Source: Pedobacter yulinensis (GTDB lineage: Bacteria > Bacteroidota > Bacteroidia > Sphingobacteriales > Sphingobacteriaceae). From it: DNA of 64,000 nt. How positions within the stretch are numbered: position 1 is the first letter of the stretch; each line of letters opens with the position of its first letter. Location: NCBI RefSeq assembly GCF_003029735.1, contig NZ_KZ686268.1:310001-374000 (forward strand). Direction: 5' to 3'. The notes under the pieces are model-generated. The model saw only the letters and a program-made list of their open reading frames with translations, made no database searches and had not been told where the DNA came from. A program made the translations under genes and the position numbers. Below are positions 19,000 to 41,360 of this stretch, one piece after another.

Positions 19000-19824
19000 T
19001 TAGTTCCCCAGTGTGAAGGAAATGGCAATATTGTAACTTACACGTACCGGTTTACCGTTTTGGATTCCAGGAATCCATTTTCTGCTCGCTTTAAGTACCC
19101 GCTTTGCTTCTTCATCCGTACCGTAGCCAAGGCCTTTAACGACTTTGATATCGGTCAGTGAACCGTCTTTTTCCACAACGAAAGACATGTTTACTTTTCC
19201 CTGGATGTTTTGCTCAGCTGCCTGAGGCGGATATTTGATCGCATCAGCGAGGTATTTATAGAAGGCAGGCAGGCCTCCCGGATATTCCGGGTTTTTCTCG
19301 ATTGATGAGAAAGCGTATACCGTATTGTCTTCAACAACCGCAGCCTGTTTAGGGCCTTCGCCGACAGGAACATTGATGTTCACATCAGCAGTCGGGTCGC
19401 CGGCAATGGTCTTCTGACCGGGGTCGGCTTTTTTCAAATCCTCTACGGTAGGTGGCTCCTCGTCGCGCACCTGCTCATCGGGTTTAACGATGGGCGGCGG
19501 GAATTTAACCTGGTCTGTTCTTGGAGGCGGCGGCTCCACCGGTGGCGGCGGAGGTGTCTCCGGGTTTACGGGTGGTGGCGGCGCCACAACCACTTCTGTT
19601 TGCTTCAGCACTTCATCGTCTTCTGGTAACGAACCTTTGATCAGTGAATAGATCTTGGGAGCGAAAAACAGCAGGACAAATGCGGCTGAAGCGAAGAGCA
19701 GGGATTTGGTCGTGTTGGAAGCATTCGATTTACGCAGCTCATAGGCGCCGTAACTCTTGTTCTTCGTTGCAAACACAACATCCAGCCACTCTCTCTTGAA
19801 AATATCTAACTTCGAACCAAACAT
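19000..19824 (-). CDS. tonB: Energy transducer TonB
   Basis: A 274-residue TonB-family protein. A cytoplasmic N-terminus with YGAYELRKSN is followed by one membrane helix (about 43-63), a proline-rich periplasmic linker with several PPPPP runs, and a C-terminal TonB domain (YPGGLPAFYKYLADAIKYP onward, ending in VSYNIAISFTLGN). It transmits the ExbB/ExbD proton-motive force to outer-membrane receptors. It follows exbD by 21 bases. The PGGLPAFYKYL segment is shared with two other TonB-like proteins in the window (38635-40371 and 40807-41238). Confidence 0.93.
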   Translation of the reverse strand: MFGSKLDIFKREWLDVVFATKNKSYGAYELRKSNASNTTKSLLFASAAFVLLFFAPKIYSLIKGSLPEDDEVLKQTEVVVAPPPPVNPETPPPPPVEPPPPRTDQVKFPPPIVKPDEQVRDEEPPTVEDLKKADPGQKTIAGDPTADVNINVPVGEGPKQAAVVEDNTVYAFSSIEKNPEYPGGLPAFYKYLADAIKYPPQAAEQNIQGKVNMSFVVEKDGSLTDIKVVKGLGYGTDEEAKRVLKASRKWIPGIQNGKPVRVSYNIAISFTLGN

Positions 19825-19845
19825 AGCTTTATGTTATTAATGTTG

Positions 19846-20397
19846 TTATAAAATTCCTGCCTTTTTCATGAAGTCCTTTTCACCTTCAAGAAGGTTTTTC
19901 GGATCATCGTCGATCGCCGGAGCAGTTTTAATTTTCGCAATTGCCAGCTCGTCCATGATGTCTACAAAATTTTTGTAGTTGGCACCCTCAGTTGGTTTGA
20001 TCACGACGGTTAACTGCCTTTTCGGGTCGTTGCCATACATATCTGTAACCTTCTTTTTGTTGTCGAGCAGCGCTTTGCGGATGTCGCCGAAGCCTACAAT
20101 GTTAGGCTCTGACTTTCCTGCTTCGCCCATGTACCAGGCAATCTTGTCGTTTTTACCGAGCAGGATGGTCATGGCGGTTGAAGCCCGCAGTTCCAGTTTT
20201 GTATCGTTTTTCTCGTCTTTATCAGGCTTGGCCACGTCCATGGCCTGTGGCTTAGACAGGGTAGTGGTCAGCATGAAGAAGGTGATCAGAAGGAAGGCCA
20301 GATCCACCATTGCAGTTAAGTCTACACGGGTTGATTGTTTCTTACTTCTTACCTTGCCGCCTTTACCACCGTCGCCGCCGGTATTTAATTCTGCCAT
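19846..20397 (-). CDS. exbD: ExbD-family biopolymer transport protein (second of pair)
   Basis: A 183-residue protein with one N-terminal membrane helix. The segment STRVDLTAMVDLAFLLITFF contains the membrane aspartate (AMVDLAFLL) that carries protons in ExbD/TolR. A periplasmic domain follows, with WYMGEAGKSEPN and VVIKPTEGANYKN. It works with ExbB and TonB. Four bases after the other exbD. Closely similar to the orphan ExbD at 26930-27445. Confidence 0.92.
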   Translation of the reverse strand: MAELNTGGDGGKGGKVRSKKQSTRVDLTAMVDLAFLLITFFMLTTTLSKPQAMDVAKPDKDEKNDTKLELRASTAMTILLGKNDKIAWYMGEAGKSEPNIVGFGDIRKALLDNKKKVTDMYGNDPKRQLTVVIKPTEGANYKNFVDIMDELAIAKIKTAPAIDDDPKNLLEGEKDFMKKAGIL

Positions 20398-20401
20398 CTT
20401 C

Positions 20402-21019
20402 TTATTCTTTAGGGCTTCCTTCAGCCGAGGTGATTAAACTAAATTTGTTCATTTTCTGCTTCTGAAGAATGTCTACGATCTTCCTGACCGCAGGGTACTC
20501 TTCTTTCGCATCTCCTTTAATACTGATACGCATATCGGTATTATCGATTTCCTTTACGGCAACGCGCGACTGGTAGATCCAGTTATACAGCTGGTTATCA
20601 ACTGAATCGGTCGGGATTCCGGTTTGGATTCCAGACTTCTTGCGTTGCTCCCCATCCATATTGATGAATTGTTTCAGATTGCCCATGGGTACACCGAAAG
20701 ATGAGATCACTGAAAAACGTTCCTCTTCCTGTGGTGTAAATTTGATACCGTATTTTTCGCCCATTAACTGCAGGGTACGTTTACGGATCTTGGTACCTGC
20801 AACTTCAAAGAAAACCTTTCCCTGCCCGATTGTCAGCAGCGCGATGTCTGCATCTGGTACTTTGGTAATGATGGTCGATGAAGGTGTAGTTACTTCCAAG
20901 GGTTCTGGCTGCCTTGACGTTGCCGTCAGGATAAAGAAAGTGAGCAGCAGGAACGCGACATCGCACATGGCGGTCATGTCTATCGCTGTACTCTTTCTTG
21001 GTATTTTGACTCTTGGCAT
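20402..21019 (-). CDS. exbD: ExbD-family biopolymer transport protein (first of pair)
   Basis: A 205-residue ExbD with a basic start (MPRVKIPRKS) and a membrane helix STAIDMTAMCDVAFLLLTFF holding the conserved aspartate. The periplasmic part is longer than in the second ExbD and quite different in sequence, so the two are likely to form a heteromeric stator with ExbB. Located 85 bases after exbB. Confidence 0.92.
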   Translation of the reverse strand: MPRVKIPRKSTAIDMTAMCDVAFLLLTFFILTATSRQPEPLEVTTPSSTIITKVPDADIALLTIGQGKVFFEVAGTKIRKRTLQLMGEKYGIKFTPQEEERFSVISSFGVPMGNLKQFINMDGEQRKKSGIQTGIPTDSVDNQLYNWIYQSRVAVKEIDNTDMRISIKGDAKEEYPAVRKIVDILQKQKMNKFSLITSAEGSPKE

Positions 21020-21104
21020 AATATAAACTTGTTAGTGTTTTAATGAATGATGTTCTTGTAACCGGTTTTCCATAAAGCCGGTGAAACTTTTTTTACACTA
21101 ATGA

Positions 21105-21932
21105 TTATTTATGCGTAGAAGCATAGGTCTGTACGATGCTGAAACCAGCTTCGTCAATGGCGTAAGTCAGTTTGTCGATCTTTGAAGTAAAGATGTTGTA
21201 CATGATGATCGCCAGTGTCGATGTAGAGATACCTGTAGCTGTATTTACAAGGGCCTCAGAGATACCTGTTGCAAGTGCAGCCTGGTCAGGAGCACCAGAG
21301 TTTGCCAGACCGGCGAAAGCCCTGATCATACCTGTTACCGTACCCAACAGACCCATCAGTGTACCAATCGATACCAGGGTAGCTATAACGGTCAGGTTTT
21401 GCTCAAGCATAGGCATTTCAAGCGAAGTAGCTTCTTCGATGTCTTTCTGAATCGCTACAACAGATTGCTCAACGTCAAGATTGGTGTCGGCTTCTACCTC
21501 GCGGTATTTTTTCAGGCCAGATTTGATTACGTTCGCAACAGAACCTTGTTGTTTATCGCACTCAGCCATTGCAGCTTCGATGTTGTTGGTGCTCAGGTTG
21601 CTTTGTACTTTTCTTACGAAAGTATCCAGGTTGCCTTTACCTGAAGCTTTACCGATCACGATAAAACGCTCTACAGAGAATACAATTACCATCAGCAACA
21701 GGCCGATCAGGATTGGCACGATGAATCCACCTTTATAGGCCATTCCAAAATAGTCACCAGTTTTTGGCAAATTTTCCGGGTTGTTGTCAATGAAGTGTTC
21801 AGGAGCGCCCAGTACGAATTTAAACAGGAGAACCCCAATGATGATACAGATAGGAATAACCAAAGTAGCAAATAAATTAGAGGCAGAAGAGCTCTCTTTT
21901 TTAACTGTAGTAGGTTTTGGTGCGTTTGCCAT
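21105..21932 (-). CDS. exbB: ExbB / MotA-TolQ-ExbB proton channel family protein
   Basis: A 275-residue membrane protein with an N-terminal helix (about 19-40), a second helix near 75 and the conserved C-terminal channel region LVSIGTLMGLLGTVTGMIRAF followed by ALVNTATGISTS. It forms the proton channel pentamer with ExbD that powers TonB. First gene of the seven-gene unit, with its own promoter at 22028-22057 and an AT-rich leader of about 90 bases. Confidence 0.93.
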   Translation of the reverse strand: MANAPKPTTVKKESSSASNLFATLVIPICIIIGVLLFKFVLGAPEHFIDNNPENLPKTGDYFGMAYKGGFIVPILIGLLLMVIVFSVERFIVIGKASGKGNLDTFVRKVQSNLSTNNIEAAMAECDKQQGSVANVIKSGLKKYREVEADTNLDVEQSVVAIQKDIEEATSLEMPMLEQNLTVIATLVSIGTLMGLLGTVTGMIRAFAGLANSGAPDQAALATGISEALVNTATGISTSTLAIIMYNIFTSKIDKLTYAIDEAGFSIVQTYASTHK

Positions 21933-37904: not shown

Positions 37905-37929
37905 ATAAAAAACCGGCTCATCGCCGGTT
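37905..37929 (-). terminator. Terminator of the blaI-blaR1 unit
   Basis: A 7-bp stem (37911-37917 with 37923-37929, AACCGGC/GCCGGTT) with a 5-base loop; on the minus strand it continues into TTTTTTATT. It lies 22 bases after the stop of the plug-repeat gene. Confidence 0.85.
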
Positions 37930-37950: not shown

Positions 37951-38625
37951 TTAGTGCGCCGGCGCTGCCTTTTTCTGGCCGGTCTCTGTGGTGTTTTTTT
38001 CCGCTTTTTTTGTGGTGACCAGGATCACGCCGTTCACACCTTTTGCTCCGTACATGCTGGTTGATGCCGTATCCTTAAGTACGGTAATTGACTTGATCTG
38101 GTCAGGAGCAATTGCCTTCATGGCATCTGCACCGTCTATGCTGACTGCCTCGACCCCATCTACCACGATCAGTGGTTTCTGAACTGCCGGACCACCCTGC
38201 AGTCCATTCATGACACGAATGCTGGCAGCTGCTGGTGCATGTTCGTCCTTGTCTTTTCGCAGCAGGTTGTTCAGCGCATCCATGCGGACCTGGAGGTCAC
38301 GTGCTGCGTCTGAGTCTTGTCCGCTGCCAGTGCGCACCACAATAGCCCCTCTAGTGGCCGCCCGTCCAAACAAGGCGATTGCCGATTGGCTATGCAGTAC
38401 CGACACATCTCTGATGTCGCCCGGTGGCATTTCCATAGTCCAGGATCTTTTCTGTTCTGGCGTAAGGATAACTCCGTTCAGCACAATCAGTGCACTGTCG
38501 GTCCCTGTGCGGGATTTTATAAAAGTCAGGCCTTTCGCAGCCGGCTGTTCCTGAGCAGCGACGCTGAGCCCACCCGCAGATAAGCAGGCGATAAGCAATA
38601 TTCTTAAATAAGTACTTTTCATCAT
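37951..38625 (-). CDS. Small secreted protein with two TonB-receptor plug-like repeats
   Basis: A 224-residue protein with a signal peptide (to about residue 24). Two units resemble the end of the SusC/TonB-receptor plug: residues about 44-100 (ALIVLNGVIL, then DIRDVSVLHSQSAIALFGRA, GAIVVRT) and about 148-208 (KPLIVVDGVEA, then QIKSITVLKDTASTSMYGA, NGVILVTTKK). No barrel follows. It lies ten bases after the M56-TonB-plug gene, whose C-terminus carries a third copy of the same unit. Possible roles are self-assembly with the fused sensor or competition with receptor plugs; function unknown. Confidence 0.78.
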   Translation of the reverse strand: MMKSTYLRILLIACLSAGGLSVAAQEQPAAKGLTFIKSRTGTDSALIVLNGVILTPEQKRSWTMEMPPGDIRDVSVLHSQSAIALFGRAATRGAIVVRTGSGQDSDAARDLQVRMDALNNLLRKDKDEHAPAAASIRVMNGLQGGPAVQKPLIVVDGVEAVSIDGADAMKAIAPDQIKSITVLKDTASTSMYGAKGVNGVILVTTKKAEKNTTETGQKKAAPAH

Positions 38626-38634
38626 TTTTAATTT

Positions 38635-40371
38635 TTAGCGGACAATATTCTTGTCTGCGGGTTTGTTTTGTTGATCTTTTGTTGTGACAATAATGACCCC
38701 GTTGGCGGCGCGCTGCCCATACAGCGTCGTTGCAGACTGACTTTTCAACACATTGATAGCGGCAATGCGTTCAGGCTGCACTGAACCGGAAAATTCAGAC
38801 CAGCTTCCGTCAAGCGGCTTTCCATCCACAATGACAAGGGGTGCGTTTTCCGCTTTGCCCGAAGTTGCAACACCACGGACGATGACCGGCGGTTTGCGTT
38901 CACTGGCGGGCACACTTGCGACCAGTCCGCTAATTCCTGCCGGGACTGGTGCGGCCCGGGCTGGCTCTTCGGATGCATCAGGTGCAACTTGATCGAGTTT
39001 AAACGATAAGTTGATATTGTACGTAACTGCTACAGGGCTGCCGTGCTGAAGGGCAGGCTGCCAGGGCTGTGAACTGCCCACAACGCGGATGGCTTCCTCG
39101 TCGCAGCCATAACCAATGCCATCAAGGACACGGATATTTCCGAGCCGGCCATCGCGGCCTACTGTAAATGCCAAATGAACACGGCCACTTGCGTTGGCCC
39201 TGACCGCCTGCGCCGGATACCTGAGGTTGGCCGCCAAAAATTTATAGAAAGCGGGCATACCCCCCGGAAACAAGGCATGTTCCTGGTCTCCGGTCGCAGA
39301 CTCCGGTTCCGCAGGTGTGTTTTCCCGTTCAGACAGCTGCAGCCGGGCCGGCCGGGTGTGTGTGCTTTCGGTTTCCGGAACTGCGATCACAGGAACAGGC
39401 TCGTCTGCCAATTCGGGTGCGGCCGCGGCGTCACCATCCAATGAGATCAATGCAGACGCTGCCGGAGCAGTCAGACTGCCTGCAAGTTGCTGCACGGCCT
39501 GAACAGGCTCACTCAGGACAATATCGCTGGTAAGTTGCCGGATGTCATCGTTTTTACGAATCGAGGCCGAAGACAGGATCATCAGTAAAACGAGAACCGG
39601 CAGCATGAGCCCGTACTTCAAGATAGCCGCGCGCCTGGAGCGCTCACGGGTTAGCATAAAAATTCGCTTTTTGACCATCGATCCGGCAAAAAAAGGACTG
39701 ATCAAATTACTTTGCTCCAGGCCGAAGGCCCGGCTCAGCAAGAGCATGGAATAGGCATATTTATCGCCCCGGTAGTTTGCTGCCGCCTCGTCTGCCAGGT
39801 ATTCGTGGGTGGCCTTGACCGCAGCAATGAGCAGGTAACTCACAGGATTAAACCAGGTAAAGATCCGGATCGCTTCGAAGAATATAATGTCTGCGCTGTG
39901 AAACTGACGAATGTGCACGTCTTCATGCAATTGGATGGTATCGCGCTCTGGGAGCTGTACACCAACCACTTTCCGGTTGAAAAACGAAAACGCGCCCTGG
40001 CCGGCCGGTTCACGAAATAGGTGTTTGACCCTGAATAACCTTGCCACGAAAAAAACAATGCCGACAATAACGCCTGTGGCATACAGAACGGCTATTACAG
40101 CGCCCCAATCAGTTTCTGCGCGTGCCGGGCCGCTTACCTGCATGACCATTGCATTCAGGTCATCTACACCTGCATATAACCGCCGGCTAACCGGCTGCGA
40201 ACTTAACCATTCGATGCGCATGAACGGGAGGCCTATTGAAAACGCGCCAGCGCCAAGCAGGTACAGGCGGTTTAGCTTGAACCAGGTTTCTTTGTGCAAC
40301 AGGAGCCGGTAAAATGTGTAAAAGACCACCAGGTAGAGATTTACCTGCAGCATGTAATGGGCCCAGTTCAT
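38635..40371 (-). CDS. BlaR1-like M56 metallopeptidase fused to a TonB domain and a plug-like tail
   Basis: A 578-residue membrane protein. The N-terminal half is an M56/BlaR1 domain with helices near 8-25, 36-52 and 90-112 and the zinc motif HEDVH (149-153), then FFEAIRIFTWFNP with the third ligand and HEYLADEAA (189-197). A last helix lies at about 252-270. The periplasmic part has a low-complexity linker, a TonB C-terminal domain (FPGGMPAFYKFLAANLRYP to YNINLSFKLD, about 370-470) and a plug-like unit (APLVIVDGKPL, IAAINVLKSQSATTLYG, GVIIVTTKD). BlaR1 sensors cleave BlaI-type repressors after a signal. Its ATG overlaps the blaI stop by four bases. Confidence 0.88.
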   Translation of the reverse strand: MNWAHYMLQVNLYLVVFYTFYRLLLHKETWFKLNRLYLLGAGAFSIGLPFMRIEWLSSQPVSRRLYAGVDDLNAMVMQVSGPARAETDWGAVIAVLYATGVIVGIVFFVARLFRVKHLFREPAGQGAFSFFNRKVVGVQLPERDTIQLHEDVHIRQFHSADIIFFEAIRIFTWFNPVSYLLIAAVKATHEYLADEAAANYRGDKYAYSMLLLSRAFGLEQSNLISPFFAGSMVKKRIFMLTRERSRRAAILKYGLMLPVLVLLMILSSASIRKNDDIRQLTSDIVLSEPVQAVQQLAGSLTAPAASALISLDGDAAAAPELADEPVPVIAVPETESTHTRPARLQLSERENTPAEPESATGDQEHALFPGGMPAFYKFLAANLRYPAQAVRANASGRVHLAFTVGRDGRLGNIRVLDGIGYGCDEEAIRVVGSSQPWQPALQHGSPVAVTYNINLSFKLDQVAPDASEEPARAAPVPAGISGLVASVPASERKPPVIVRGVATSGKAENAPLVIVDGKPLDGSWSEFSGSVQPERIAAINVLKSQSATTLYGQRAANGVIIVTTKDQQNKPADKNIVR

Positions 40372-40745
40372 CTTGGTCTGTTTTTGACTTTATTGATCAT
40401 TTTCATTATCTCATCGATATCGCTCAGATCGAGTTTCTCTTCTTTCACAAAGAAGGAGAACATACTTTCAACCGAATTTTCAAAGTAGTTGCCGAGTAGT
40501 TTCTCGGTCGCATGGCGTTTGTAGTCTTCCCTGCTGATCAGGGGATAATACTGGTGCGCTTTGCCGAACGCTTCATGGCCGATGAAACCTTTTACCTCGA
40601 GAATCCTGATAATGGTCGAAACGGTGTTGTAAGCGGGCTTCGGTTCAGGCAGCATGTCGATGACTTCCTTTACAAATGCTTTTTCCAGCTGCCACAAAAC
40701 CTGCATGATCTGTTCTTCTGCTCTCGTAAGATCTTTTATCTCCAT
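40368..40745 (-). CDS. blaI: BlaI/MecI-family transcriptional repressor
   Basis: A 125-residue repressor from the ATG at 40745 (MEIKDLTRAEEQIM). The longer open frame to 40829 runs through the promoter and operator and overlaps the upstream gene, so it is rejected. The winged-helix region includes EEQIMQVLWQLEKAFVKEV and PAYNTVSTIIRILEVKGFI, followed by FGKAHQYYPLISREDYK; the C-terminus is the dimerisation region. It is expected to be cleaved by the adjacent M56 protein. Operator-like palindromes occur in its own promoter and in that of the upstream gene. Confidence 0.92.
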   Translation of the reverse strand: MEIKDLTRAEEQIMQVLWQLEKAFVKEVIDMLPEPKPAYNTVSTIIRILEVKGFIGHEAFGKAHQYYPLISREDYKRHATEKLLGNYFENSVESMFSFFVKEEKLDLSDIDEIMKMINKVKNRPR

Positions 40746-40763
40746 AATATTTTTATAAGCACT

Positions 40764-40794
40764 TAAACTTACAACTAATCTGTTAGTTCTGCAA
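40764..40794 (-). promoter_or_regulatory. blaI promoter with BlaI-type operator
   Basis: On the minus strand TTG (complement of 40792-40794) is followed after 20 bases by TAAGTTTA (complement of 40764-40771, one base from TAnnTTTG). Between them lies the near-palindrome AACTAATCTGTTAGTT (40773-40788), one mismatch from the perfect operators at 41242 and 41267. Repressor bound here would block both promoter elements. Confidence 0.75.
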
Positions 40795-40806
40795 CAGTCG
40801 CGGGAA

Positions 40807-41238
40807 CTACTTGCGGGCGTTGAAAGCAATTGGCATCTGAAAGCTCACCGGGACGTTTTCACCATTTATTTTTCCTGGTTTCCAGCGCGGGCTGGCAGAC
40901 ACAACCCGCACAGCTTCCGCATCCAGCGCCCTGGTTGCAGGACGGATTACGGTCACGTCCCGGATGTTGCCCGACTCATCCACAACAAAGCCAAGCAGGA
41001 CTTTACCACCTGTTCCGGCCTTCTTTTCTGCATCCGGATACCTGATACCCTTAGCGAGGTATTGGTACAAAGCCGGCATGCCGCCCGGAAATTCCGGCTT
41101 TTGATCAACTTGGTCGTACCCAAGGGGCCCGGCATTTTTCTGCGCATGCGCGCGGCCCATTGATACGCTTAAGATCGTAATCAGCAGACCAGTGGCTACG
41201 CAAATCTGGCGAAGCCTTTGATGAAGTGTGGTTTTCAT
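40807..41238 (-). CDS. Secreted TonB C-terminal-domain protein of the BlaI unit
   Basis: A 143-residue protein with a long signal peptide (to about residue 32, ending AHA), so unlike true TonB it probably lacks a permanent membrane anchor. The mature part is a bare TonB C-terminal domain: FPGGMPALYQYLAKGIRYP, GGKVLLGFVVDESGNIRDV, VVSASPRWKPGKINGENVP. It shares this module with the M56 fusion downstream. Two BlaI-type palindromes sit in its promoter. Role unknown; a periplasmic ligand for the sensor is possible. Confidence 0.85.
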   Translation of the reverse strand: MKTTLHQRLRQICVATGLLITILSVSMGRAHAQKNAGPLGYDQVDQKPEFPGGMPALYQYLAKGIRYPDAEKKAGTGGKVLLGFVVDESGNIRDVTVIRPATRALDAEAVRVVSASPRWKPGKINGENVPVSFQMPIAFNARK

Positions 41239-41241
41239 AAT

Positions 41242-41257
41242 AACTAATTTATTAGTT
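41242..41257. promoter_or_regulatory. BlaI-type operator 1
   Basis: Perfect inverted repeat AACTAAT-TT-ATTAGTT, 16 bp, just downstream of the -7 element and 4 bases before the ATG of the TonB-domain gene. Centre-to-centre spacing to operator 2 is 25 bp. Confidence 0.85.
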
Positions 41258-41289
41258 AAACATACAAACTAATTTATTAGTTTCAAAAA
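41257..41289 (-). promoter_or_regulatory. Promoter of the secreted TonB-domain gene, containing BlaI-type operator 2
   Basis: On the minus strand TTTTTG (complement of 41284-41289) is followed after 19 bases by TATGTTTA (complement of 41257-41264), a close match to TTTG-N19-TAnnTTTG. The spacer holds a second perfect AACTAAT-TT-ATTAGTT palindrome (41267-41282), identical to operator 1. This arrangement is what a BlaI-repressed promoter should look like. Confidence 0.85.
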
Positions 41290-41296
41290 TCCAGTT

Positions 41297-41326
41297 AAAA
41301 AAAAGAGCCCTGCAATGCAGGGCTCT
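41297..41326 (-). terminator. Terminator after the M28 peptidase gene
   Basis: A 10-bp GC-rich stem (41304-41313 with 41317-41326, AGAGCCCTGC/GCAGGGCTCT) with a 3-base loop; on the minus strand it runs into TTTTTTTT. It insulates the BlaI-controlled promoter from the upstream M28 gene. Confidence 0.92.
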
Positions 41327-41360
41327 CCATTAGGGGATAAATGTCCTCCGATGCGGGAGA

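Follow-up and report, generated by a model that had tools for sequence, protein, structure and literature searches.

Organization of the locus

The window analysed here, a 64,000-nt stretch of the genome of the soil bacterium Pedobacter yulinensis, carries at positions 37951–41282 a minus-strand unit of four genes. They encode, in order, an exported TonB domain, a repressor of the BlaI/MecI family (BlaI), an M56 protease extended by a TonB domain and a half-plug (the sensor), and an exported double half-plug protein (Table 1). A first-pass annotation had placed TonB and plug modules in three neighbouring genes at this locus, and the minus-strand open reading frames (ORFs) and their Pfam matches bear this out. 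The M56 gene and blaI share four bases, and the double half-plug gene, which has no operator of its own, begins 9 bases past the M56 stop. A longer TTG-started ORF ending at 40829 was rejected as blaI, whose start lies at 40745.

No barrel gene and no ExbB or ExbD gene is found inside the four-gene unit, as the annotation had remarked. The remark does not extend beyond the unit, since a regular, housekeeping-type ExbB–ExbD–ExbD–TonB system is encoded 17 kb away in the same window (19000–21932, minus strand) and the genome contains, at another place, a barrel gene preceded by this operator. The N-terminus of the exported TonB protein resembles a signal peptide, and the sensor has an M56 membrane domain.

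Table 1. Features of the BlaI/M56 unit and its surroundings (window coordinates)
Feature	Position	Strand	Basis or remark
Exported TonB C-terminal domain protein, 143 amino acids (aa)	40807..41238	-	ORF, TonB_C match; signal peptide judged by eye
blaI, BlaI/MecI-family repressor, 125 aa	40368..40745	-	Penicillinase_R match
M56 (BlaR1-type) protease + TonB C-terminal domain + half-plug, 578 aa	38635..40371	-	Pfam, profile, model
Exported double half-plug protein, 224 aa; units at about residues 44–101 and 151–206	37951..38625	-	Pfam Plug, TIGR04057
HEDVH zinc-protease motif, residues 149–153	39913..39927	-	Homologue alignment
Sensor TonB C-terminal domain, residues 363–461	38989..39285	-	Z 11.2 to 6i97_D, 89 residues, root-mean-square deviation (rmsd) 1.8
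Sensor half-plug, residues 498–565	38677..38880	-	SusC/RagA plug matches
Putative operator 1 of tonB-domain gene, AACTAATTTATTAGTT, in −33/−7 spacer	41267..41282	.
Putative operator 2 of tonB-domain gene, between −7 box and start codon	41242..41257	.
Putative operator of blaI-M56-plug, AACTAATCTGTTAGTT, in −33/−7 spacer	40773..40788	.
−7 box TATGTTTA of tonB-domain gene	41257..41264	-	−33 TTG at 41286–41284
−7 box TAAGTTTA of blaI	40764..40771	-	−33 TTG at 40794–40792
Terminator-like hairpin upstream of unit	41302..41328	-
Terminator-like hairpin downstream of unit	37911..37929	-

Operators within the promoters of the unit

The inverted repeat AACTAANNNNTTAGTT occurs without mismatch at only three places in the 64 kb, all of them within the unit, which substantiates the shared operators of the first-pass annotation. 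The number of sites was reached in none of 100 shuffles, scored with a slightly different pattern allowing one mismatch. Two of the three operators fill the spacer between TTG, which we take to be the −33 promoter element, and TAnnTTTA at −7, so that the proposed control by BlaI is supported by their position. The −7 consensus is given as TAnnTTTG in PMC9723704.

The arrangement is not peculiar to this window. In 57 blaI promoters holding the site (A or T allowed at the ends), a −7 box follows just downstream in 35 and a TTG lies just upstream in 37; 23 further blaI promoters, mostly from outside Pedobacter, have no such site. A reversed control pattern gave no match in the same 533,628 bases that hold 40 operator matches. 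Apparent repressor sites in the repressor's own promoter are a trait shared with the BlaR1/MecR1–BlaI/MecI systems.

The repressor and the M56 sensor

The blaI product matches Penicillinase_R (Pfam, E-value 1.6e-33). In an alignment its Phe99 corresponds to Phe102, which is the P1' residue of the bond cleaved in Staphylococcus aureus BlaI/MecI, and it may mark a corresponding cleavage site; direct cleavage of S. aureus BlaI by BlaR1 at Asn101–Phe102 is described in PMC9834060.

In the sensor, Pfam recognizes Peptidase_M56 (E-value 1.8e-9), TonB_C (8e-18) and Plug (6.6e-8). The HExxH motif is intact, and H149, E150, H153, E190 and D194 are invariant among 28 homologues. A profile built from these 28 proteins and compared with PDB sequences matched SusC plugs best (4e-15), followed by TonB domains (5e-10) and S. 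aureus BlaR1 (8exp, 1.8e-8). The predicted model, with a mean predicted local distance difference test (pLDDT) score of 72.8 that is low in the linkers, resembles BlaR1 (8exs_A; Z 15.1 over 199 residues, rmsd 3.1) and TonB domains (Z up to 11.2). Analogy with BlaR1 predicts that the tail is periplasmic. According to Pfam it contains no penicillin-binding or beta-lactamase domain, and none of seven proteins scanned has an STN, anti-sigma or sigma domain.

The plug modules are partial, located in proteins of 224 and 578 aa, and do not form a complete plug with a 22-strand barrel. The best stretch of the sensor spans positions 31–107 of the 107 in Plug, and its half-plug exceeds the cut-off of TIGR04057, the SusC/RagA signature. 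A CarboxypepD_reg domain was also present in the tail of four of seven extra sensors scanned (from a Spirosomataceae, L165; Emticicia, L167 and L168; Dyadobacter, L177), which suggests that the sensor lineage has gathered periplasmic parts of SusC-type receptors plus their TonB partner. The idea that TonB-receptor parts serve here as building blocks is supported. A TonB-box-like segment occurs in the linkers of 32 of 83 sensors against a shuffle mean of 8; as the pattern was shaped post hoc, this serves as a lead only.

Exported proteins as probable copies of the sensor modules

The exported TonB protein consists of one TonB_C domain (Pfam, E-value 1.9e-17) behind its signal-peptide-like N-terminus. 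The double half-plug protein has two Plug stretches (8.3e-13), the best covering positions 49–107 of 107, and it too lies above the TIGR04057 cut-off; its structural model, built with three sequences, is poor (pLDDT 52). In a tree, the nearest other class of the exported TonB domains was the last TonB domain of the sensor in 36 of 40 cases and the class of TonB proteins of about 280 aa in one. Degenerate TonB domains of exported half-plug proteins were nearest to the first, degenerate TonB domain of the sensor in 4/7. From this kinship the exported proteins appear to be copies of the sensor tail and may therefore have partners in common with it.

Conservation of the unit

A relative was found in 96 of the 99 genomes searched, with the best matches within Pedobacter. 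All 40 Pedobacter loci have blaI directly ahead of the M56 gene and an HExxH motif; 39 have the operator, 39 the M56–TonB fusion and 36 the M56–TonB–half-plug fusion. Exported genes are more variable: a half-plug protein is encoded at 22 loci, a TonB protein at 21 and either of them at 25, and in most relatives the secreted genes are placed after the M56 gene. Among the relatives, only Pedobacter sp. SYP-B3415 (L158) has the exact four-gene layout of the window. The adjacency of blaI and the M56 gene is conserved; the complete gene order that the first-pass annotation had proposed to follow is not fixed.

The spread outside Pedobacter was examined in the best 80 of 325 stretches, which gave 46 loci with an M56 gene, 33 with M56–TonB and 21 with M56–TonB–half-plug. 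The last belong to Pedobacter, Mucilaginibacter, Arcicella, Emticicia, Lacihabitans, Dyadobacter, a Spirosomataceae and an unassigned Bacteroidetes bacterium, and the exact operator was present within the stretch examined in 13 of the 21. In Emticicia, Lacihabitans and Dyadobacter a single blaI is followed by two or three tandem M56–TonB genes (L167, L168, L173–L178, L184), with a variant repeat in the promoter in Dyadobacter and Lacihabitans. Chryseobacterium BlaI–M56 loci (L189, L191, L192, L194, L198, L206, L226, L231) have a half-plug protein of about 810 aa nearby and a CTACANNNNTGTAG-like repeat upstream of blaI.

A probable dispersed envelope regulon

Exact sites numbered 58 in 15 Pedobacter genomes, 14 of them at the sensor. 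Of the 44 distant sites 40 were examined, and 28 of these lie at most 60 bp upstream of a called start, a zone that takes up 4.95% of positions in the background. The sites are typically 10–66 bp, in a few cases farther, upstream of genes of three recurring ortholog families: A (412 aa, CarboxypepD_reg), B (about 930 aa, CarboxypepD_reg and an OMP_b-brl_3 outer-membrane barrel) and C (a secreted TPR protein of about 380 aa). Two others were noted, D (DUF3887 and an alpha/beta hydrolase) and E (DUF4397). In the genome of the window both A and B are preceded by an exact site, and a GLPGLI-type Porph_ging gene comes after the family B gene.

Families A, B and C, not D and E, were validated in Pedobacter genomes outside the discovery set, the site being scored over 12 letters. 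An exact site preceded 12 of 21 family A genes, 18 of 23 of family B and 19 of 20 of family C (15, 20 and 19, respectively, with at least 11 of 12 letters), compared with 1 in 2,324 background windows; since related species share ancestry, such ortholog counts do not represent independent events. Among 18 further B orthologs, five of them from discovery genomes, 13 have at least 11/12 letters and 16 at least 10/12; two loci score 8 of 12, perhaps owing to a wrong start codon. A site beside a further barrel of 34% identity (L152) was not counted for family B. Among the 52 genomes that contain both, 17 have the B gene and the sensor within 25 kb of each other. Flanking DNA has diverged and the operator site has been kept.

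Sequence comparison therefore points to a dispersed envelope regulon under this operator that comprises families A, B and C and perhaps D and E. The unit can be regarded as one signalling unit, as first proposed, but not as a self-contained one, because the same operator precedes distant genes.

Two neighbours of these families were also recorded. On the far side of the operator region from the family C TPR gene, and divergent from it, lies the gene of a conserved 98-aa protein that belongs to no Pfam family (L124, L131, L138 and others). In many genomes family A is followed by another CarboxypepD_reg gene (L126, L134).

Comparison with known systems

Like BlaR1–BlaI and MecR1–MecI of Staphylococcus, the unit couples a BlaI-family repressor to an adjoining membrane gluzincin (HExxH...E) with a C-terminal, presumably extracytoplasmic sensor, and the P1' Phe of the putative BlaI cleavage site is conserved. 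It differs in its sensor, where a TonB domain plus half-plug takes the place of a class-D beta-lactamase-like domain, and in its apparent targets, which are envelope genes. In the absence of a penicillin-binding sensor domain we regard it as a BlaI/M56 system and not as a BlaR1 beta-lactam receptor.

Cell-surface signalling through TonB-dependent transporters likewise uses regulated proteolysis to link parts of an outer-membrane receptor with transcription. Here, by contrast, a scan of seven proteins found no STN domain, anti-sigma or sigma factor, a predicted inner-membrane protease carries the receptor parts as a fusion, and the output would be a repressor. The TonB C-terminal fold is that of the energy transducer TonB–ExbB–ExbD, but it is attached to a protease or would be free in the periplasm, with no ExbB/ExbD in the unit. 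The half-plugs share TIGR04057 with SusC/RagA outer-membrane proteins, whereas the plug is partial (mainly its C-terminal half) and lacks a barrel.

Proposed mechanism and alternatives

The domains, catalytic residues, operators in promoters and conserved distant targets are well supported by sequence; what we infer is binding by BlaI, topology, cleavage, the role of feedback and the kind of signal, namely engagement between TonB and the plugs of outer-membrane receptors. The unit is probably a BlaI/M56 regulated-proteolysis system in which a periplasmic sensor built of SusC and TonB parts controls derepression of an envelope regulon. BlaI would bind the inverted repeats between the −33 and −7 elements and repress both its own unit and the regulon. 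The M56 protease would be an inner-membrane protein whose zinc site faces the cytoplasm and whose TonB domain and half-plug are in the periplasm. Altered binding by these receptor-derived modules would activate the protease, which would then cut BlaI near Phe99 and derepress the regulon. As the exported TonB and half-plug proteins copy sensor modules and most likely have the same partners, their induction would compete with the sensor, as feedback, or extend its reach.

Several observations weigh against this model. The motif alone is in modest genome-wide excess (58 sites in the 15 genomes, where the reversed pattern has 36), so that the regulon rests on recurrence at orthologs and on the held-out genomes. 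In the genome of the window the family D site carries one mismatch and no family C gene was found; family A has no site in 6 of 21 validation genomes, and one genome (G018) has variant sensor operators and no site before A or C. SusC-type plugs align with about residues 492–571 of the sensor at 35–47% identity, and the structural match is weak (Z 2.5–4.7). The TonB-box-like segment of relatives was not found in the window's sensor protein. Exported genes are absent from 15 of the 40 Pedobacter loci, and feedback through them therefore cannot be essential. Finally, a paralogous BlaI (C1:201 kb) has a similar repeat, which makes cross-talk possible.

Interaction of the tail with TonB or with parts of receptors seems to us the likeliest signal, and an envelope-stress switch fits nearly as well. 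A more far-reaching and rather improbable version is that the sensor reads the TonB system directly. Its TonB domain would be bound by a receptor-like partner, and the periplasmic balance between free TonB domains and free plugs or TonB boxes would switch the BlaI-cutting protease. The partner may be the tail of the sensor itself, an exported half-plug, or a genuine SusC plug or TonB box. If true, the switch would use a protease to measure the load or assembly of TonB receptors and would adjust outer-membrane barrels together with their accessories.

It is also possible, if on the unlikely side, that the modules are generic periplasmic binding folds unlinked to TonB or receptors, and that the sensor watches its exported partners or unfolded envelope proteins. 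The quite different tails of the other BlaI–M56 pairs in this genome, the closer kinship of the exported copies to the sensor's own domains than to the 280-aa TonB class, and targets such as the TPR protein and the alpha/beta hydrolase, which are not receptor parts, would agree with such an envelope-stress switch. However, the CarboxypepD_reg domains of the four sensors named above complete a set that mirrors the periplasmic parts of SusC plus TonB, and one main target is itself a CarboxypepD_reg outer-membrane barrel.

We consider it improbable that the operators of the distant families belong to another BlaI paralogue and that the unit regulates only itself. The genome of the window has six M56 genes, each adjoining a BlaI gene. 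Upstream stretches were read for four of the five paralogous blaI genes (all but L028): two have clearly different repeats (TACGAANNNNTTCGTA; TTTACGAAACGATCGTAAA), one has a related AACTGA...TCAGTT form, which could speak for a second regulator, and one has none that is clear. Only two genes separate family A from a second BlaI–M56 pair, but that pair has the different operator TACGAANNNNTTCGTA, and the AACTAANNNNTTAGTT form is found at window-type blaI in 39 of 40 loci. As the paralogue repeats differ, the AACTAA form fits the BlaI of the window best, cross-talk being possible. The tails of the five other pairs are very diverse, including KFNSPEEQAKWKKLGEDMER-type repeats (L026) and another plug-like end (L028).

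A beta-lactam or cell-wall sensor resembling staphylococcal BlaR1, suggested by the shared repressor and protease families, is very improbable and was rejected, as the tail has no penicillin-binding or beta-lactamase domain and none of ten regulon-side proteins scanned matches a beta-lactamase model.

Implications for envelope regulation in Bacteroidota

The unit is thus a real, conserved and apparently undescribed system. A full-text literature search, judged from its search results, yielded no description of an M56–TonB or M56–plug sensor or of the operator, in agreement with the first-pass annotation. Bacteroidota rely on very many TonB-dependent receptors, and to our knowledge little is known about how they sense the state of this machinery. 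The unit appears to be a means, so far undescribed, by which the cell monitors and adjusts its outer membrane. A BlaI/M56 switch whose sensor consists of TonB and SusC parts, and for which the operator is defined and the targets are conserved, can be tested directly in Pedobacter strains that grow in culture. Such a switch further suggests that BlaI–M56 pairs constitute a general, modular class of signalling systems and are not regulators of antibiotic resistance only.

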